From: Liolophura sinensis
Taxonomy: Eukaryota > Mollusca > Polyplacophora > Chitonida > Chitonidae
DNA length: 64,000 nucleotides
Reading direction: 5' to 3'
Assembly (NCBI RefSeq): GCF_032854445.1
Contig: NC_088300.1
Coordinates: forward strand, 68,360,984 to 68,424,983
The notes under the pieces were generated by a model. It was given only the letters and a program-made list of their open reading frames with translations, ran no database searches and was not told where the DNA came from. The translations under genes and the position numbers were made by a program. Positions 3,101 to 58,200 of the stretch are shown here, in pieces (within the stretch, counting starts at the first letter, position 1; the number at the start of each line of letters is the position of its first letter).

Positions 3101-6100
3101 ACTCAGCTGAATCCCAGCACTGCATAGCTGTTCATTATCAGTGTTTTGAAGGTGACACTTTTGGTGACTGGTGAATGACATGAACCAGTGAGTCAGCATG
3201 GAATCAGTGCAAACTACAACATTATGAATATATGGGCAGTATTAGGTAGTACATAAAGTAGTATTTTCTGAATATATCTGAAAAGAAAGTACATGTAGTA
3301 TACCAAGACTTTGGTGAAGCCAGTGTAGGGTTAATGAGTTCAGTGTTATTTTAGTCTGGGAAAAGTGGTAGGATCTAATTTCACTTCCCCATTGGGGCCG
3401 AGATATGTAATTAACAGCATAGGACTGTGTCATGAAAAGTGGACTTTTGAACTGTGAGAGTACACGTCTTGCGATACACTAAAGATACACAGTCTAGGCC
3501 TCAAGGATCATTCTGATTGTTTCACCAAACTGAAATTAGTTAGTCGGGCACCCAGATCAAAAGTTTAATTACTGTAAAGGGTATCCACCCCCCACCACCC
3601 AAAAAAAAAACAACAAAAAAAAAACAAAACTAATTCATTGACTTTGTTATTTTCAATCAGTACAGGAATTATGTATGCAACTAGCTGGGCAGTCTTTGAA
3701 ATTATACTTGTATGCAACACCCTGCTAATAGTTCCTTGTGATTGAGTCTGTTGGGGTATCATTTGTTCCATTTCATGTATTATTAAATATTTCATTATTT
3801 TATCAATGGAAAGAAGCTGAATGTGTTTTAAAGTTAGAAATTCAGGTCTGAGTATTGATTTCTGACCTGGTCACTTGCATCCTAGTGAAAAAGAAGTAGA
3901 TATTATTTGTTTGGGATATTTGAGAAAGTCAGTGTTATATTGAGGAATGGCAAGCACTTGAGCTTTGAAGGCAGCTTTAAGACAGCACAACTGTAATGGT
4001 CCCTTAATTCAAGCCATTGAAGCTCAATTGAAAGGCCGTTATTTACCATGGGGAGTAAAATAAACCAGTATTACCCAGCAGGCATGTTAATTAGTGAGCT
4101 ATGCTGAGTGGAGTATTACCAAAATATATACAAGCTGGGCTCTTTGTCAGCAATCCTTTTGGTAGAGTTATGTGGACCATGCACAGTTTGACAGGAAAAC
4201 ACCAAGTTCTTGTGACTTCTGGGAAGATATTGGCAAGTGTGTGGGACAACTATTCGTGATGAGAAGCATCAGATTACACTGATTTAATAAAGAAAACCAA
4301 GAACACTGTAACTTATCTGCAATTACATAAATGCCAAAATAATTCGGAAGAAACCAGATGTGTGTATATGTTCTTGAAAAATCGTCCATGCTGTGGTGAG
4401 TACGTGCTTGCACATCAGTTGTCTATGATGACTAACTGCAGGAGGAACTGTTCATTCCCCTTTGTTAAAATCAATAGTGTTTCAACCATGAAAATGCTAA
4501 TTTACTATTCGGTATGATATTTACATTCACATCTTATTTTAAGGTCAGAAGTATAAGTGAATTTGTCTTTATTACAGATAGTCAAGGAGAGCTATGTAGA
4601 CCATACGCAGTTTGACAGGAAAGATCCTCACTATGACAGGTATGTTCCGTCTATAACAGAAATTTAGGCTGAACAGGTTTTCCAAGCCATCTCATATTTA
4701 GCATGGTAATGCAGTCAGGCAGCACTATATTGGGATGAGCCTGCAACTAGGAGATGCCATTGAGATGTATGACTGAAAAGTGAAATATTCTTGAGTACGG
4801 CATAAAACACCAATCAAATAAATACATTAATGAGGGCTAGTCTTGAACATCTAATTATCCTTTATGTTTTGCAGTTAAAAGGGACCTCCCGTTATGCTCT
4901 AGCTTTGTTGTGTGAGCATGTGTGCACATGCCCCGATATAAAATGCATGTACATTGTAGTCTGCATGCATCTCATGTTTTTTTGTAGATCTGCAAAACCG
5001 GACAACCCCCGCTGGTTTATGGTGGATGTTCAGTATGTGCGCATGCTGAAGAGGTTCATCCCATTATCTGAGCTCAAGCAATATCACCTGAGGCACAAGA
5101 CGGAGGGCGGGCCCCTGAAGGGTGTGGCACTGTTTACCAGGGCCAGACTCTCTGTACAGCCACTTACACAAGGTTTGTACATGTACCATCATCTGCCCAG
5201 TCCGTTAAGTATGGGCTTGTTCAGTATCAGATAAAGCCTCTGCGCCTTAAGCAAGCTGCTTGCTCTATATCTGAATACATTTCTTAGTTATCATCAGCAG
5301 TGATATGGCGTTAAACAACAATCAAATAAATATCATCAGTTTTTTGTCATCTGTTCTTATTTGGAAGGATATTTATTTTGGGGATTTTGTTGTCACATTC
5401 TAATAATGTAATAACAGTTTTTGTCATTTAAATATTATCAGAGCAAAAAAACCTCTCCGAACAGAAATGACTACTCCACTTGTGTGGCCAAGTGTCTGAT
5501 ATATTTTCATCACTGTCAGATGACAAAGAAGAAGTTGTTTCAGTGTTGAACGTTTTCCTGCCCAAAATTACAATTTAATTAAGTACCCTAAATGACCTAA
5601 AATTTAGCCAACAAAAGGGCATTTTCAGAGGCAAATAAATGTCGCAAAATATTATTTTTGGTGGTGAAACTTACCATTTTTGCAGTAGAATATCATCCCA
5701 TGCTCCAAGCAAACCTCAAAACACCTTTCTAAAATCAACAGAATTCTCAGAATCGGGAAAAATGGGCAAGGTAGTCATGGACGATTTTGGTCATTAAGGG
5801 TAGTTATATTGACAGGCTGGGGAAAGTCTCATTTGTGAAGTTTGTATTCAGTTCGAGAAACTTTGTCACCGTTGAAGGTGCCATTCTTTGCGTGTGTGTC
5901 GCTACGATAATTCGTCTGTAATTTTTTTGAATTTTTCACAAATCACACCCTGCTGTATGAGCTGTAGAATGAAAAATCATATGAAGTTTTATCAGAATTA
6001 CTGCATCATCACATACATCTTCATTTGATTTTTCACCAAATTTGTACAACAGATTGGTTAGTTTGTGAAAAATGCATTTATTTTGTTAAATTATGAAAGA

Positions 6101-16178: not shown

Positions 16179-19100
16179 GTATGTACAATTTGTTAGTCCT
16201 GCTAATTGGTCCACATTTGTTACTGGTATTAGAGCAAATACGTTTTATTATGCTCCGGCACGAGGGCATACGCATGTGGCCGTTAGCCTGCAGAGGAAAG
16301 GTAAGACTTCAAACTTCTGTAAGTGTGCATGTATGTGTCTAATATACATGGGTTCGAGGCCTGTGCAGCTCTATATGACATATACATTATATATACATGA
16401 GCATATTTATATGTCTATACATGACTGAAAAGAAATGTGCATAAGTAAATTTTAACCTTATTATCCATGTACATTGCAATTAATATAAACTTGCACTTGC
16501 TGATCGGTGTTATAATGTACTTTTGTGCGGTATATACCTGTATAGCCTGTGTATATTCAGGTATTAGTACCTGTAAGCGTTATTATACAGTTATATACGG
16601 AACTCCTTGCGTGCTCATTCCGCTGTCCAACGCTATGGATTTAAGTATGTGTACTCTATAGACCAGGGTGTATAGCAGGCTGATTATAGTTAATTATCAG
16701 TCAGGTTAAGGGTGATAGATTCGGCTGTCAACACTTCAGAGGGAAAGAAAATCTTCCGAACTGAAGCATGTAATTATGTGGAGCGAGGACTGAGGATATG
16801 AAGTGGATTTCGCATCATTAGATACGACACACGGGAGTTACGTGAGCTCGTCAAACCGGACCGTATACTTACCGGTTCAGACTGCAAGCTGAGAGTCAAA
16901 TGTTTACTTAGACGGCCACGTGACACCGGCATAAGAACACACACATGTTTAGATTGTTAACGCCGAAATATTAACCGTTTCGACTAGACGACTTTTTTCT
17001 CTTAAAGTTTGACATGTTGACGTACGTCGTTTGAATTGATTCCCGTATAGGTGTTGTGAGTGTATATACATGTATATACATGTATGTACATATGTGTGTG
17101 TGTTTGTGTCAAGTAATTGATTTATCCTGTCGGCATATAGTCATCCGAGACTGAAATAATGAAAAGCAAATACATGAGGCATCAAAGCTACATCTCTCTC
17201 AGCAGAGTATACTGAGAATGATACCAAATACACCAAACACCTTACCACCAACACCCGTGTTATATTTAGTGGTGACTGCATGTCTTTTCTAGGCATATAC
17301 AATTAGTTAAATGTACATGTAGCTGCATTGTCTTATACCGGTACTGTTTGCAGCCTAGAATTTCAGATCCGTGCAAAAGTATAATGCCTTAAGAATTCAT
17401 ATATTGGACGTTAGCAGCAGTTACAGCATTTGAGAATTTGTCGATGTGACTAAATACTAGCGGGTACGATGTGAGAGGGAGGTTCAAGGCCGGGGGAGTG
17501 TAGAACAGGCTGGGGGCATGTGTAAAGTCGGCAGCGGTAGGCTTCATACCACACCGACAGCCACCCAACTTGTTTGGCCACAATTCATTATAAAACAGTA
17601 AAAAAAAAAAAAAAAACATCATTTTGAAAATAAAACAGTTGTTTACGACATTATGCCTGTGGTTAGATCACTAAAATATCGAGGCAATGAAGAGGGCGGA
17701 ATTATTTTGGGGTGAAATCAGTCTCTATAGGATTTTAAACTAATTATCCTGACCGAATTGTTCATCGTTTTTTCTACTGCATGTATGCTTGCCCCTTGCA
17801 GCGCAATGTGATTAATAGCTGTCAACTGTTGAGTGATATATGTTAATTCCATTCACTGAGTGGTCTGCCTCAGACTATGCTTTAAGAACACAGTGGATTG
17901 ACATGCCTGTATCACGGTAATGATATATGGTACTGCATTTCTTTAGTTTAAGCAACGGTGTCCGTCGCAGTGGTATCAGCCGAAATCGCTTATGCAAACA
18001 TGCGTTCTTACACGAATGTAATTTTAATGGATATACGACGTCGGGAGGCTTGAGATCATTCACGTGTCGGTCAGACTAAATACTTTACAAATGGTCCTCG
18101 TTGCTACCTCGCTCAGCGCTCAGCGCTCAGCGCTGAAATGTTTTAGAACAAGGAAACGTCGCTGTAATGTGACTGGGTCGGGTGTCATGTCTGGTGTCTT
18201 CGGCATGATATATTAGTGGCGGAAACACTTGGGCGGCATTGGCTCACGTTGGCGCATAAAGACACAGTATATGTACCGCACACCTAATGACTCCTCGTAG
18301 TCATATGACTGAAAAATTAAGTACCACGTTAAACCCCAAGTATTCATTTATTCATTCATTTCAATGAATATAAGGTGTGAAATAGTTCAGTGATATTTGC
18401 AGTAGTCATGCTAGCTGAATCCATTTGTATCATACCGCGGTTACCGTAACGAATTGGCTAGCAATGGAGGCTCCTTGATTCCTGATCGACAGAGCGGTTC
18501 ACAAGACTATGCCAGGTTAGAGCACTGTTGCGGTGGTTCAAAATCCAGTTATTGGCTGTGTTGATATACATCTGAAAGTTTGCCAGGCACCTAGTGCGAT
18601 GCGGTGATTTCCTGCGCCAATAAACCTGGCAGCACATTGGGAAACACTGTTAAATACATATTAAAATAAATAAATATTTGTGTACACTACGGGTGCTAAT
18701 GGAAAGGTTGCAAGGCATGCTCTTAGCTGTGTACTGATAATGCTCACCTAATTGCACATACAACGAATTGTCAGAAACTACTGCACTACTTCAAATTATT
18801 TGCGGTAACTTTCTGAGACATTGCCAGAAAGAAACCATAAACCAGGTACTTAGGGTAACTTTCTGAGACAAAGTCTGAAAGAAACCATAAACCAGGCACC
18901 TGCGGAAACTTTCTGAGATAAAGTCTGAAAAAAAAAAACACAAGCCAGGTACTTACGGTAATTTTCTGAGACAATTAAAACCCCGTGTAAGCCATTCGTT
19001 CTTCAGAATTCGTTGCTGTGAGCGTATTGTTGTTAGTCCACTCGCACCACGGATCATACCGGTATAAGGCTTACGAAGACAGTGAAGTTTTAGTCTATAT

Positions 19101-49200: not shown

Positions 49201-52200
49201 TTTCACTTAATCCTTATTTGTCCTACATATATGAACCTTAGAAAAAGTTGAATCAACCCGTATTACTAGTGCAAACCATCCGTCTTTAAGTTAGTACAGC
49301 TTTTAACCAGTAATAATGTATCTGTATTATTAAAATTGGGGAAATATTTATTTGCTGCAGGTAAATTCAGAAAAATTGTTACCTCCTCCAGCATCTGACT
49401 GTCATATTATCTCATTTGTGTGGTGTTTTTTGTTAAAGTCGAACTACTGCCTTTCTGCTATTGTGTTAATACATCTGCTACTTAATCATCCAATGAGCTG
49501 CACGTTTACGGAAAGAAATAAACACCAGCATAAAAATAAAGTAACGCTTCCCAGGCATCTGTATCAGTTTGTTTTCTTTTTTTAACTGTGTAAGCTACAG
49601 TTCACACAGTGCGTTACCTCAAGCTATGTCATCAATATTACGAGAGAGAAATGACTGTTATTGATATGCATATGAGCTTTGTCGAACGATAATGAGTTTT
49701 CCAAAAACAAAAACTTCTTCTACTCGTTGTCCCGGTTGACACGCTCTCAAACAACATGAGGTAATTGGCTTTTTACCCATGGTAGAGCGTCCGCTTCGGG
49801 ACCGGTAGATCCAGGATCAATCCTTGATCGAGTCACACCTAAGACTTTAAAAGAGGAAGTTGTAACTTCCTCGCTTGGCGTTCAGCATGAAGGGGATAGT
49901 GCAACGACTGGTTGACCCGTATCAGTATAATGGCTCTGGCGGGGCGGCTTACTTGCCTTCGGTAAGTTGTCTCAGTGAAGCAGCACTAAATAAAAGAGCG
50001 GTGGAAATCCGTCCTGCAACAAGGAGGCACATTATACGTACATGCACCCTAATGATTCCTTCGTCGTCATATGACTGAAAAATTGTTGAGTACGACGTTA
50101 AACCCCAAGCACTCGCACTCACTTTTACCCATGGTTCACACGCTGCAACGAACGCGTATATGTATATAGTGGCCTACATTCACTCCGCATAAGGTCTTAC
50201 AACTCGTTGATGGTTGTGTGCGTGTATGACGTTCTCCAAAACATTTTACACCTTCCATATATACAGCTGTATATAATATTTTAACGATAGTTCAAAAATA
50301 CCTTTACGGATCCGTACTATATCGTGCATGTCCATATCAACATCTACGAAATTTGTTTATTTATTTATTTATTTATTTGTTTGTTTACACCTCTTGATTG
50401 TTACTTAGTGCCACACTCATGATTTGCTTTCATATATACGATGTCTGTCAGTTTTATGGATGGATGCAACCGGAGAGCTAGGCATAAACCATTACTGACG
50501 AACTTCCTTACCTGTGACGTACAGATATGCACACCATATTTCTGTGAGGCAACATTAGACTGCACAAACGATTACACCAGCGTCATCAACCTTAACTGAT
50601 TATGGTCACCTATGCATATGATCAGCAGTGAAAGCGAGGACATCGGTGAATTAAAAAGTAATTAGGGGCGCATAACGTTAACCACACAGTTTCTTCCGGT
50701 AATAAATTCAAAGAAATATCACTGAATGCGGTTTGGGGCAGGGATATAGGAGGGGTAGCCGAAGTGGACATAGTGCTTATAATCCATGTTTTTTTTAAAA
50801 ATTCAGTAAGATGAAAGCTAACTTCTAAAACATCTCTCTATGATCAGGAGTCCGAAGTCAAAACGTAGAGACAAGCTTTACAACGAGTTGTGGGAACAGT
50901 TCATTGTTGACGAACGCCTGGCGCTATGGGGGTTTGTGTCAAGCAATCCTTAGTTCCTGGTATAGGGACACAATCACACCGTTTTACTATTACCGTGGAC
51001 CGGAAACACCTTTGGAGTACCAAAACACGACCGCATCTTGGGGCGACATTTGTAGGTGAGTCATGCAATCATTACACAACAGAGGGCTGGACATGTTAGA
51101 TGAACATATTGTTAGAAGATTGTAATGTAAATAACAATTACAGAAGAAAAAAAATAAAATGGAATTGCGGCAGCCACGTCCACGGAAAGCTGTATCAGAA
51201 ACTTTCTTTGCCAGCTTAGTTTTAGATATGATAGGTTGAGCCTCACCGGGATTATAGTGTATAGGTACTTAACACAGGGATATGCGTTCTTTAAAATGAT
51301 CGCGAAATTCCATTTGATTGCTGGAGGCAGGTTTTTAGTCAATGTCACGTGGTTATATGACTACAGTACCTTTCATTGTCTGGCGGTAGTTTAACAAACG
51401 TGTATTCTTAAGGATAATGTATGTTTTTTGTAATTCTCGTTTTAATTATCATTCTGCACGTACCGCACTCAGCCAGAACTAAATGGGTCATCTTTAAAGC
51501 GATTTGTCTCGCTGTTACTATATCTACCGCATAAAAACACGTAGTTTGCACTAAGAAAAGCTATCTAGCAAAGTGTAAACAACCGCAAATAGCAAGAGAA
51601 AAAAATCCACCACACGAAATCTTTGATTGCCTGTTTGAGAACAAAATCAGTAAGTAGAAGAGAATTAAGGTTGGTACTGATGTGGGGATAGGGCTGGGTC
51701 CTGCAATTGAATGACAAATTGTATCTTTGCTACAGGACTATTTGTGCATACAAGGTCATTATTTAGCCGACGTTAGCAGGCATTCATGTTTTTACCACAT
51801 GGTGTCTTCTGTGAGGGTGTTGTATTATTAGCTTTTGGTTGTCTGTGAGGATGTTAGACGTGTTGTATTATAGGTCATTGGTTGTCTGTGAGGATGTTAG
51901 ACGTGTTGTATTATAGGTCATTGGTTGTCTGTGAGGATGTTAGACGTGTTGTATTATAGGTCATTGGTTGTCTTAAAGGATGCTAGATATGTTGTGTTAT
52001 TTGCTACTGGTTGTTTTTGAGGATGTTAGATGTGTTATTGCATATTGGTTGTATGTGCAGATATTAGACATGTTGTGTTATCGTTGGTTGGTTGTGAGGA
52101 TGCTAGGTATGTTGTGTTATTTGCTATTGGTTGTCAGCGAGGAAGCTAGATGTGTTATTGGCTATTGTTTGTCTTTGAGTAAGTAAGGCGTGCTGTGTTA

Positions 52201-55200
52201 TCGTTCATTGGTTGTTTGGGAGGATTTGAGGCGAATTATTTTATTGGTCATTAGTTATTTGGCGAGGGTTGTTGTGTTGCACATCTTTTGGCTTGAAAAT
52301 TCAAATAAGGCCAAATCAAATGCTTTACGAAGTCAGATATTTTCTTGTTTGGTCCTCTTATAGAATGTTCATATCATGCTACACCCAGCCCTTGGATTTT
52401 TGTCTGTGAAAACCTGATGAATTTATCTACAAATACGTTACTCATGAATTCCAGCGTGACGGAATCACATTTGCAAAGGTGTCGCGGTTCTTTGATATGC
52501 GCTACAACGTTACCGCACACTGATCAGAACAGAAACTTACTGTTTTTAACAACGACAGTGAAATTCCCAACATTTTATTGAGAAACCAGTGTCATATACC
52601 GGATTTTTTTTATAGGCCGGAGTTCTGAAATCTCCGTGACGGAATCACATGACTTGGAAGTGCATTCTGTACCACTAGTACATTTCACCCAAAATGTGCG
52701 AGCTGTGACCAGGAATCATGCAAACAAAGTATTATTTGCAGGCGCCAATGAACTGCCGAGGTATTAGAAGCTTTTTTGTATAGAAAACAGACCAAACAAG
52801 AAAAAAAAAACTGAGTATACCGCTGTGACGGAATCACAAAATTATCGTGACGGAATCACGAGTACGATTTTATCATAACTATGGGAATAAAATTAGTTTG
52901 GACAATATCGCGATTAGCTAAGTAACACAAATTGTGGTCGAAGAGAAGCAAATGACGATTTCCCCACTTCACATTCAGGATGGTCGGCTTTGAATAGTTG
53001 GAATGCTTCTGAGATCGTCATACTCATATGTCGCTTTTGCTGCTTCACTTTGAATCCGTTGTCGTCTCTGACAATGATGACGTCAGCTTTACCTGGGGTC
53101 ATTCTCGAAATGGAATCGCTTTGATAATATTCTGATACAGTAGCTTTAGTTCTGACATCTATTCCCGTGCTTCGAGGTGTTGTAAACTTCACTGATAAAT
53201 ACCGTGAAGCCAGGCCTTTAATCACTGCCAGTCGTTTATGTGGACTGATGGGGAGTGACCTTTCGACTTTACGTTTTGCCTTGCCAAACGTTTGGGGACA
53301 GCTGTAAGGTGTGCCTGAACCTGACGGTGTCTCTGTACTAGTCACAGTGGTGTCCATATTCCTTTCCCTCCATGCTCGGGTATTCAGCATTGTTTTATTT
53401 CGCAGAGTTTCCAACTCAGCAGTTGTCATCCGTGCCTGCTTCCGTAGCCTGTCATTCTCTTGGTACAATTCCAATGCTTCAGCATCACTTTTCAATCGGT
53501 TTCTTCTATCCCTCTGTCGTTCTGCGGCTGATTTAGGCATGCTGCAATATAACAAGATTGAGCTTTGAACAGATACATAATTGTTGTTATAGTTTGTTTG
53601 TATTAATCAAACAGGCCTATTTTTTAACCTCAGATTTGTTCAATGTGTACTTTTGTCATCATATATGCTAAACGGAGCTTTTTAAAATTGCACAACAATA
53701 CCGTATTTATATTCTAATTAAGTCCTTCGCATTGTAAAGCGAAAGTGACGGAATCACATATTGGTAGTGATTCCGTCACACGGTTTTCGTGATTCCGTCA
53801 CGGTTATGTGGGATTTGTATTTGTCGTTAAACTCTCGATTTTTTATGTAAAAGACCCTTAACACCGACTTGCCTTTGTATTTTAATCCTCCCTTTAGTAA
53901 GACTACTGCATGAACTGCAATATTTAAAAAGTAGCACTTTTCGTGACGGAATCACCAAAATCGTACGAATAAACAAGGATATTCACGTAAACTTTTGGCT
54001 AGCTAAGTTGCTTTTTGAACGAATGTTTGACAAAAAAACTGGCTGTGTTTTATAAAGTGTGAATTTATCTACAAAATGAGCCATAAATTAGGGCTGAAAA
54101 CTCTTACCTTGCTGAAGATGGGTCCAGATTAGCGACTGTAAAATCTCACCATGCGTACGCCGGCCTCGTGACAAAGGCCTACAATTTCCGGTTGAAGTTT
54201 TCAGCACGCGAAAGACAAATACCTCATGCATATTCAAAAGCTACAGTCAATTTCAGGACTTTAGGTAGTGCTCTGTTTGGATTTACTACAAGAGTTCCAA
54301 AAATGTTATTTTGAAATTTGGCTTCAGTGGCTCATTTTACGTGGAATTCATGTACTGCTGTTTGTATAGGTGGGGTAGAGGCGTGGGAGAATGTTACCAA
54401 AACCTGCTTCCGCAATGTCAGGCCGGTATAGGTCTTGAACTTCTCAACAACCCGAAGTTGGGATCTTTGGAGAGGTTTCAATGTGAAAGAAATAGAGACA
54501 TTTCGTCGCTGTCGGCTTTCTACCGCAGAACGTGCCAAGGGACAACCGTTAAACCTGATATTCAACGAAGTGAGTATTTTTTCAACCTTCCATAACCTAA
54601 CTTTCTTTTATTTTACCAATTTTTACCAGAAGAATTTGGAAATGAAACAACATATAATTAGATTAAACCTTGGGGACCAGCCATCTTGCATGAAACCTGT
54701 TTTTAATGAAAATCACGATTTATTTCATGTCAACCGACTAGATTGTACTGGGGTTGTGTGATAGGGTGGGATACTGTTTCTACACGCAAGGATACAAAGT
54801 TGCAAGACCAGTACAACAATATTTGTAAGAAAACTTATGATAAAACACTTGTATAGTTTCTGTCTATCATTTTTTCATTTCATTTATTTTATCAAAACAT
54901 GTATACAGAAGAAACAAAACGAGTTTTGCCGTTTCTAGACTCTACCACTAGAGGTTAAAAAGTTTTAACGAGTACTGAAATCAAAGAGTATTCTTTGGTG
55001 GGGACAGAAACCGCATAATATTAGAGCATAATAACCTACAACAGGAACAATTGTCTTTATCTACCGGAGGTATTTAATACAGATTCTAAATAGTTTGATA
55101 TCATGTAGTAATGAGATAATAACATATATAGGCCTGTATGAAAGAGATTATATAAAACCAATCAGTACTATTTTTAGTGGCAGACTTAACATAACTACAC

Positions 55201-58200
55201 CGTTTCTTTTTTAACCACTGGTCTTCTCTCCCTGCATGGGCTGAGTATTGTGTTCATCAAGAAAGATAAATTATGTTTTTTAGGAATAAACGACGCTAAC
55301 TTTGATAAAAACACGACATGTCTGAACGAAACACATCACACAGAGTTGTTCATGTGCCAAAATTCTCTCAATGAAGAAATCCGCTTTGACTCCGAACGAC
55401 TATACCAGGAGTCAGCTGCTCTCAGGACGTCCATCAACAGGTAAGACACTCTTTAGCAGGATCAATATGGATATAAACCGTCTTAAACTTCTAGACATCA
55501 TAGTCTTCAAACAGTAGTGCATATTTTATTGGTGAAAGCGGAGTACCTGACGTAAACCACCGACCTCTGACAAGTTACTGACGAACTTTCACGTGTCGTC
55601 ACAAAGAGGCTGGGCTGTTGATATACACACCAGTATGTTTCATCGCTCATATGACCTAGCGGGCTTCAACCCCTAGGCTGAGGATAAACATCTCATTATA
55701 AATATACAGTGAAAAGGCATATACGTCTTTTTCCTTTCTTTGGTGTGCGTTTGTTGTGAATTACTAAATTATTTAAGTAGCTGTACTGCCTGATCTAGAT
55801 AATGTGACAAACTCATCAGATACTATTTATTTATTTATTTATTTACGTGATTGATGTTTTACGCCGTACTCAAGAATATTTCACTTATACGACGGCCGCC
55901 AGCATTATGGTGGGCGTAAACCGGGGGAAACCCACGACCATCCAGTAACCACAGGTTACTGGCAGACCAGGTACTATTATTATTTAATGTATATCAACAC
56001 TACAAGGTGAGATGATTGTAAAGTGTGAACATATATCCTCACGCTATCCTCACGGTTTTTTTCTTACTTTATCACACTCTGTTTAAGTATCAGCATCGGT
56101 CAGGAAATCAGTCATCCAACAGCTAATCTACAATTTGCCACCCATCAATAACAATTTGTTTCCTTGATTTTTAAGACTTTTTCACTTATACGATGGCAGT
56201 TCGAGGAACTGGGAGTTCCAAGGGTAAACCATGGATCTTTGGCGATTTACTTTACCACATGAAACGTACGGACATGCCCACCATATCGGTGGAAGTCAAG
56301 TGGTCCTCAACGAAAGTTAGAAAGCTAAAAGGTGCCAAAAGCGTCGTCGACCGCTCATTGGCACAAAAAAATGATGAAGGCCCCCACAAGCAGTGACAAT
56401 AGGAGAATCTCAGGCCAAGGCCGGTCTTGAACCTGCACCGCGTGTCCTAGCGATTGAATGGTGTGCTCCATTAACTACTGGACCACGCTTCCCGTCCCAC
56501 TAATAACTGACGGCTCCGTTCAATCTGTTTTTTTAGGTTTGCTACTGCTGCCGTCAACTGCATGTTCAGTGCCATTAACCGCTCCCCGTGTAACCAAGCA
56601 ACGAAGAACGTGATGTATCACGTTGCTAAGTTACAACTGCCCAGTTTTATCGACGAAACGGAATTGGATCTGGATGAAACAACCACAGCCGTACGTACAC
56701 AACCAAGTCACTGATCTGACGGAATTCGGATAGATCTAATACCGCTAGCTATACTGACTTGTCGGTAACTAGAACTGAAGAAAGACAAATACGCCTCTCT
56801 GCGTCTGTTTGATGACCTCTGAACATTTGCTTAGAGAAGTCAAATCTCAGTTCCCATCAGAATGGGTGAAAAAACTAACCAAAATCACACTTTAAACAAG
56901 AACTAAAGTGGTCAAACAAATGTCGCCCTGAAATTTGTTATTTCCTAAGGCTCCAAAATCACGAAGCTGTCTTAAATTGTGAGACTTCAACTTCCAAACA
57001 GTTCACTGAGCTAAAATTGTGATTTACCTTCGGTCTTTGTATTTTAATGTTTATACGATTGTCTAATTGTTAATATTAACAAACTGGGAAATTAGCTATG
57101 TTGAAATCTAAGCTCTTGGAAGTAAGTATTTAGGCTGTATGGTTGACTGAGAATTAAATGTAAAATGTGGTAAGTAAAGAGCTAACTTACAGTTACGATT
57201 TCCATACGACTACTTTACGGATCAACCATTTTGTATGTATTTGCTTACAGGACTTTTCTTCTATTATCCGCTGTACTGTCGGAGTTTACGGCGATCCCCA
57301 TTTAAAAATGTGCGAGGGCGAGGGCTTAGTTACGTGTTCTGCAGTGGGGCAGCAAACCTACCTCAAAAACGATTGGTTCACAGTGGCGGGAAGTAACGTC
57401 AGAGTTGGAGTCCGGTCCACCAATCCACCTATTACATCTATGAGATCGGTACGTTCAAGGTCATGGGCAATTCAATGCAACCCTATTGCTCTAGGGTAAA
57501 TGACTGAAAACTAAAGGCTCTGTGTTAACTTCCTTCTCCTTCAAAATAAATGGTATAATATTTTCTTCCACCAATAATTCAGAGTTTTTAACATGAAATT
57601 CGACGCAGGTCCAAATTATTGGGGTAAAAGAGGCTTTTTATAATAAGTATATAGAGGAATTAGGCGTATGCTGCAAGCCTGGGAATGATTTTAAGTTGAT
57701 GAGTAACATGTCTGGTCAATGTTCCAGCTATATACGTATATCATTTTGGACATGTCAAGATACTTTTCGGTCTAGTGTATTATCCATGTTCACAGGCTTG
57801 TATCCAAGATTCTGAGGAACGCCACAAACCAGCTTGGTTCGATAAATTTAAAAAAAAAACAATATTTATGGAGAAATAACGTATAATATGGTATCTTATT
57901 TTATATTGTTTTTGTACGCTTTGAATGTTGTGACGATGATAAATGCCGCATTTGCGTTCTTGTAACATTTTGGTAATTTTCCAGGTCAAAATCACTTTTC
58001 ATTCTCTGGACACTGGCAACGCTGTGGCAATGTACACTGCATCTAACGCCACATTACCCACGGTGTTTGACAACACAAACGAGACGACTCTGGGTCAAGG
58101 TAAAGACAACTTTCACCGACATGTAACCATCAGGTTAATTTGAAAGTACAAATACGGATGATCTTTCTTGTAAGTTGAGACGATTTCAGTTAAATGTAGT

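Follow-up and report, generated by a model that had tools for sequence, protein, structure and literature searches.

The window (the whole 64-kb stretch of Liolophura sinensis DNA that was analysed) contains, next to a predicted exon of an RGM-like gene, a mobile element that carries eight exact copies of the 13-mer GTGACGGAATCAC. The element is a recently moved, internally deleted copy of a DNA transposon of the terminal inverted repeat (TIR) type, flanked by target-site duplications (TSDs), and contains a truncated open reading frame (ORF) on the minus strand. The features at the locus are as follows:

52439..52442, strand not applicable: TSD TACT, left copy
52443..54352, minus strand (strand of the gene): whole non-autonomous, internally deleted element of 1,910 bp, delimited by homology breakpoints shared with other copies, TIRs and TSD
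52443..52453, plus strand: left TIR, CATGAATTCCA, from end comparison across copies
52456..52468, plus strand: site 1, GTGACGGAATCAC
52636..52648, plus strand: site 2, GTGACGGAATCAC
52825..52837, plus strand: site 3, GTGACGGAATCAC
52847..52859, plus strand: site 4, GTGACGGAATCAC, 22 bp from site 3
52898..52916, strand not applicable: internal-deletion junction (approximate), with about 1.6 kb of the long copy L005 missing
52914..53540, minus strand: truncated ORF of the transposase (208 aa, counted from the exon 2 ATG), from translation and comparison with L005
53542..54107, minus strand: intron predicted for the element's gene, apparently within its 5' UTR, holding sites 5 to 8; splice signals read from sequence
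53745..53757, plus strand: site 5, GTGACGGAATCAC
53767..53779, minus strand: site 6, GTGACGGAATCAC, 22 bp from site 5
53789..53801, minus strand: site 7, GTGACGGAATCAC, 22 bp from site 6
53943..53955, plus strand: site 8, GTGACGGAATCAC
54342..54352, minus strand: right TIR, reading TGGAATTCATG on the plus strand, from end comparison across copies
54353..54356, strand not applicable: TSD TACT, right copy
54370..54569, plus strand: predicted RGM-like host exon, ends read from sequence; the tandem paralog is 69% identical in amino acids

A pattern scan of the 64-kb window recovered, within 52456-53955, all eight exact 13-mers that the initial annotation had reported, and the site coordinates agree with its description of four copies on either side of the coding region. 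Sites 5 to 8 fall in 53542-54107, and thus within the predicted intron of the element's gene, as had also been claimed. The mixed orientation described for the cluster holds for the right side (+ - - +), whereas the left-hand sites all point the same way (+ + + +). No exact match to GTGACGGAATCAC occurred in 100 dinucleotide shuffles of the window, and when up to two mismatches were allowed, a single additional place resembling it was found in the window, at 18216.

Across the genome (609 Mb), GTGACGGAATCAC is present in 140 exact copies, compared with 13 for a reversed-word control, and most of the 100 genome places listed are in clusters of seven or eight. Twelve loci containing 13-mers formed a first sample and were aligned to the window. 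Nine are 96-99% identical to it over the sharply bounded interval 52443-54352 and have unrelated flanks; the remaining three (L007, L008, and L010) are diverged relatives. A genome search with the left end yielded at least 14 near-identical copies (95-100%), plus several weak relatives. The 14 copies, all of which were read and which include that in the window, account for 109 of the exact sites, and six diverged relatives contain a further 16 (seven in L007; two each in L008, L010, L018, and L025; and one in L020). The 15 exact 13-mers left outside the fetched family members and relatives correspond to the background given by the reversed control. Therefore, the expectation that the 13-mer accompanies the gene family is borne out by the genome scan (125 of 140 sites), and the family-independent scatter that would have spoken against it is not apparent in the genome-wide count.

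Comparison of the 14 copies defines the ends of the element. An 11-bp TIR pattern (with one position open) is present at both ends of 13 copies, and in L014 the left end departs from it at one position. Perfect 4-bp TSDs surround 12 copies (TACT, CCAT, TATA in three cases, AAAG, TGTG, ATCT, TTTT, AATT, CTAT, and ATAT); L004 and L012 have no perfect TSD and show three to four matching bases displaced by one. There are three size classes: 3,537 bp (L005 only), approximately 2.8 kb (five copies), and approximately 1.9 kb (eight copies, including that in the window). The mean difference among the 1.9-kb copies is only 0.5%, which points to recent movement of the short copies. Both 13-mer clusters are found in every copy regardless of size class, with eight exact sites in 11 copies and seven in three. 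All 13 shorter copies have thus retained them, such that a repeated word at both ends is kept in deletion derivatives.

An exact 16-bp direct repeat, TGAATTTATCTACAAA, has one copy at 52418-52433, in host DNA 9 bp outside the element's left end, and one at 54060-54075, near the right end. It was considered as a long target duplication and rejected, as the latter copy lies within the element, whose breakpoints and TIRs are at 52443 and 54352. The full-length copy L005 is itself apparently inserted in another transposase gene, which is piggyBac-like by eye (L005 ~583-1606 and 5143-5560).

On the host side, the tandem paralog of the RGM-like gene (L036, G000:C6:68433200-68434100), outside the window, has the same intron end, uninterrupted and with no insertion, and the joined host flanks of the element align to it across the insertion point. 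An RGM_C match further downstream scored 24.7 bits, just under the 27-bit cut-off. Because only 17 bp separate the right end of the element from the predicted exon start (54370), the insertion has probably displaced the normal branch-point region of this exon. The same position, inside the host gene and so near a predicted exon, is what could favour the array as a new enhancer of the RGM-like gene, as had been suggested. However, an identical array is found at unrelated insertion places, and the suggestion is left without support; we consider it extremely unlikely. Two other repeats were observed in this neighbourhood: a degenerate 43-bp minisatellite (51778-52261) just to the left of the transposon, and a dispersed repeat of SINE-type or similar appearance (approximately 55825-55943), which has 80-94% identity in seven of the 12 other loci compared (L004-L010).

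The minus-strand gene proposed in the initial annotation exists as an ORF and is not an intact gene. Judging from the comparison with L005, it represents what is left of a longer transposase, namely 208 aa of the N-terminal part. Its start codon is just within exon 2, and the ORF stops at the deletion junction. It comprises a basic helical N-terminal stretch and a stretch that is HTH-like by eye, and lacks both a Cys-rich part and a catalytic-like domain. Past the part shared with the window, the L005 protein has the Cys-rich part, (S/T)DGPxxQ, HGKGPND, and a PHD-like end, and its frame is shifted mid-way; as L005 is the sole full-length family copy found, an intact source copy was not seen among the fetched copies. 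Conserved blocks across the relatives are DFAENY, (S/T)DGPxxQ, and HGKGxxDGxG, with a candidate D, D, D triad. Sequence searches with the transposase against Pfam, NCBIfam, and PDB gave nothing convincing (weak GCN4, E 0.38; weak PHD, E 0.08-0.7), and no known DNA-binding domain was recognised using Pfam, PDB, and a single-sequence model. The model of the window ORF has a mean pLDDT of 46, with only the first helices usable, and a fold search with it returned no match at E <= 0.001. The distant transposases of L026, L028, L031, and L032 end in GxxYxGxxx...W...DDV, which by eye resembles a Tudor-like reader, and it is possible that chromatin-reader tails have been swapped between lineages (Tudor-like versus the weak PHD-like finger of L005).

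The truncated ORF may contribute to the spread of the short copies. Eight of the 14 copies are short and share the ORF end or ORF length, and the ORF is open in seven of these eight (automatic alignment of the coding sequence is unreliable between size classes; the ORF scan matched no start in L004 and L011, so the counts cover the eight short copies only). Such copies could have spread with a protein of 208-211 aa that keeps a putative site-binding part, lacks the catalytic part, and dampens transposition, which would add to recognition of the sites by a transposase; there is a precedent in the truncated 66 kDa P protein, which is described as binding P DNA and repressing (PMC7776569). However, the changes among the eight short copies (three silent, four replacement, and one stop, plus a 9-letter gap) do not indicate selection on the short ORF, and open frames are expected anyway because the copies are only about 0.5% apart. 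A repressor role is possible but unlikely.

The 13-mers could be functionless repeats that hitch-hike with the element. Among the 14 young copies, nearly everything is conserved, site or not, as hitch-hiking would have it, and the advantage of the sites is modest, with mutations only about half as frequent as at other positions outside the coding part (4 of 1453 mutated cells versus 99 of 16443). More diverged relatives are informative here. The transposase of L007 has 56% protein identity to the window family, and yet its eight sites are identical at 103 of 104 letters, in unchanged order and orientation. The spacers between them (window family/L007) are 167/167, 176/174, 9/9, 9/9, 9/7, and 141/143 bp, and the long spacers are not clearly above shuffled sequence (the score was reached by 26, 13, and 190 of 200 shuffles). 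L007 thus appears to have kept words and distances, with no clear resemblance in the long spacers. Similarly, L010 (48% aa identity) and L018 (approximately 46-57%) each have six recognisable sites that match at 11-13 of 13 letters and are similarly arranged. Spacers in L010 are not fully saturated, since two of the three long ones resemble their counterparts more closely than most shuffled sequences do (score reached by 6 and 3 of 200 shuffles). The order + + + + / + - - + represents a subterminal architecture that has been conserved. Together with the consistent replacement of the word in other lineages that keep the layout, described below, the L007 comparison makes mere hitch-hiking scarcely credible.

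The sister lineage B (L017, with an open frame of 649 aa, and L020) has 36% protein identity to the window family (lineage A), and GTGACGGAATCAC is absent near the gene in both loci. Instead, TGTCACGGGAGTCAC occurs seven times in L020, five times exactly, in a frame like that of lineage A, and L017 has three, on a single side of the gene. Ten more distant loci were taken on the basis of a protein match and a long open frame; with several near-copies among them, they represent six lineages. A blind detector, which reports 10-mers in at least four non-tandem places, found arrays in seven of the ten (L026, L027, L028, L030, L031, L032, and L035), and gave a hit in one of seven element-free pieces of the window. 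The words have GTNACG in common, a core drawn from the same data, and with this as an anchor L033 and L034 also show arrays; L029 has none by either the blind detector or the anchor. Groups of at least three like sites are present in 15 of 16 loci (exactly three in three of them), compared with at most two in 100 shuffles per locus (three for L028) and at most one in element-free window pieces. Each of the seven lineages beyond A has its own word of 13-15 bp, mostly GTNACG plus a lineage-specific tail:

Lineage A: GTGACGGAATCAC
Lineage B: GTCACGGGAGTCAC
Lineage C: RTAACGGTAAAGACA
Lineage D: GTAACGGAGTGGAA
Lineage E: GTAACGTTGTTGACA
Lineage F: GTAACGAACATTTCA
Lineage G: GTTACGGNAATGACA
Lineage H (L041): GTAACACCACTGACA, nine sites

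These comparisons cover one genome, with loci selected by protein match and open frame. In a tree of the N-terminal half, for which L029 was chosen as outgroup and only three of 13 inner branches have firm support, lineage B (starred) and, with weaker support (92/94), lineages C-G split from the lineage A rows. A TIR with a 4-bp duplication was not found at L007, L018, L022, L026, L029, L031, L034, L037, and L038, and at L017, L019, L021, and L023 the result was chance-like or none.

A later test set consisted of six loci, with the prediction fixed beforehand and a strict rule of at least four sites in a GTNACG group. The prediction held in two of the six (L037 and L038), both of lineage D, which had already been seen. 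L041 has a clear array, with GTAACA as its core, that was picked up by the blind detector; L040 has only three to four weak sites; and no array was found in L039 and L042 with the detectors used. L029 and L039 are one clade (88% protein identity), and L029 has the HGKG block and no detectable array. The missing arrays of L029, L039, and L042 may reflect a different word that the detectors overlooked.

The change of word between lineages also bears on who reads the sites. A host transcription or chromatin protein could bind them, in which case they would be promoter or enhancer parts of the transposon and not transposase sites. Four sites are within the predicted 5' UTR intron, the arrays of lineage C (L026) and of L017 were found on a single side of the gene, the promoter side, and the GTNACG core, being common to most lineages, could in principle be the core of a host-factor site. 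However, a host factor would favour one word, and the word varies with the transposase lineage within one host; additionally, lineages A, B (L020), D, E, F, G, and H have sites on both sides of the gene. Binding by a host factor is thus, in our assessment, very unlikely.

The distances between sites recur across lineages. Fifty spacings of less than 600 bp, taken from one element per lineage (A-G), form three classes, which were read from the same data and, as the lineages share ancestry, are not independent draws: 25 spacings are 13-25 bp, 18 are 154-196 bp, and seven are 331-383 bp, with none of the 50 between the classes. Spacings above 600 bp were left out, namely those that span the gene and, in lineage D, three adjoining two doubtful matches in the coding region. 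Lineage H (L041), examined later, has spacings of 192, 168, 25, 20, 18, 20, and 341 bp, and all seven under 600 bp fit. In the test set, two of three spacings fit in L040 (33 bp is outside) and six of seven in L038 (37 bp is outside; one site was probably passed over by the rule). Between the element end and the site nearest to it, measured for lineages A, B, D, E, F, and H only, the distances are 13, 14, 180, 180, 187, 197, 357, 386, 388, and 397 bp, with 372 and 189 bp obtained by subtraction for lineage H. Eight lineages enter the spacing comparison, some just approximately 24-29% identical in the transposase, and the spacing frame appears to have outlasted the sequence between the sites. 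It is conceivable, although quite unlikely, that the distances themselves are the conserved information: a nucleosome-repeat-sized ruler, with sites separated either by some two helical turns or by one or two steps of approximately 155-195 bp, by which the linker DNA of a short phased array would be read at each end while the words changed per lineage.

Target duplications are 8 bp in hAT transposons and differ in length from 4 bp in hAT Buster elements, and the target of piggyBat is TTAA. The 4-bp duplications here set the present family apart from Ac-like hAT elements, and no hAT domain was found in the transposase. In maize Ac/Ds (hAT), AAACGG subterminal repeats are described as binding the transposase cooperatively; like the present family, Ac/Ds has several short repeats in both ends, and its internally deleted Ds derivatives move in trans (PMC3260210). 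The Ac/Ds hexamers are within approximately 200 bp of each end, whereas here sites of 13-15 bp extend over several hundred bp at fixed steps. Subterminal repeats that differ by family, and are used to tell hAT transposons apart, are described for hAT families including Buster (PMC4298943), and family-specific words as such are therefore already known. The Buster repeat is a tandem TGGGTCGCG, in contrast to the dispersed words, common core, and conserved spacing frame found here. In Hermes, N-terminal BED domains bind short subterminal repeats, two of which form a quasi-palindrome, and approximately 220 bp per end are needed in cells (PMC10368747); no BED zinc finger was found in the present transposase. 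The Hermes authors also regard auxiliary transposases bound further inside the ends as unlikely to matter (PMC10368747), which is a reason for caution regarding the outer-to-inner array. Galileo has several sites for an N-terminal THAP domain in long TIRs (PMC3688188), and for the P element, transposase sites in the interior, copies with internal deletions, and a truncated repressor are described (PMC7776569). However, the present transposase has no match to the THAP domain of these elements, and P duplications are 8 bp (PMC7776569) rather than 4 bp.

Sola elements, as described, have a DDD transposase, 4-bp target duplications, and TIRs from 11 bp (PMC10741241); compared by description only, the present family shares the 4-bp TSD, and its short TIR and DDD-like blocks agree, although we do not place it in Sola on this basis. 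Sola2 duplications are AT-rich (AWWT) (PMC3627910), whereas those of this family are varied (TACT, CCAT, AAAG, TGTG, and others), and no description of subterminal arrays of this kind in Sola was found in the openly accessible literature. Kolobok has a TTAA target duplication, with duplications of 3-5 bp in the KolobokP lineage (PMC9587614). The varied 4-bp targets of the present family depart from TTAA, which occurs in the one lineage F copy with a TIR match. The C/DxxH motif of Kolobok, hAT, P, and MuDR was not seen by eye between (S/T)DGP and HGKGxxD, a result that depends on the true last acidic residue. Kolobok and hAT do not fit this family. In piggyBat, which unlike this family is a piggyBac-type element, a subterminal transposase site is reported to restrict rather than help activity (PMC11707139), and by analogy the present sites could be inhibitory.

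Overall, the eight 13-mers most likely serve a cut-and-paste DNA transposon family as subterminal recognition sites, and the window contains a recently moved, internally deleted copy of this family. Recognition by a transposase is suggested because the words are at both ends, are kept by the 13 shorter copies, and change with the transposase lineage in one host. The proposal that the 13-mers are sites for the element's own transposase is consistent with this pattern (conservation in L007, lineage-specific words, and layout), and the transposase would then be the binder and the sites would be required for mobility. In the mechanism that we envisage, a longer copy would provide the transposase in trans, and the N-terminal part of this protein would bind the sites on both flanks as a multimer. 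With steps of 22 bp, or approximately two helical turns, protomers would come to sit on the same face of the DNA, and the outlying sites at approximately 155-190 bp would carry the array out to the ends. The multimer would then pair both ends, and the catalytic domain would cut at the TIRs and insert the element with a 4-bp duplication. Since four sites are in the predicted 5' UTR intron, autoregulation is possible, and binding in this 5' region may also repress the element's gene.

The cluster in the window is thus explained as mobile DNA, and caution is called for before it is taken for a host enhancer or an intact gene. The recurrence of steps of 155-195 bp raises the specific question of how such transposases assemble on chromatin; if the ruler were true, the transposase complex would assemble on chromatin at each transposon end. 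Additionally, one genome holds at least eight transposase lineages that are related to one another and differ in their word within a conserved frame, a ready-made series in which the recognition code of a transposase group with no credible Pfam or PDB match becomes directly testable.
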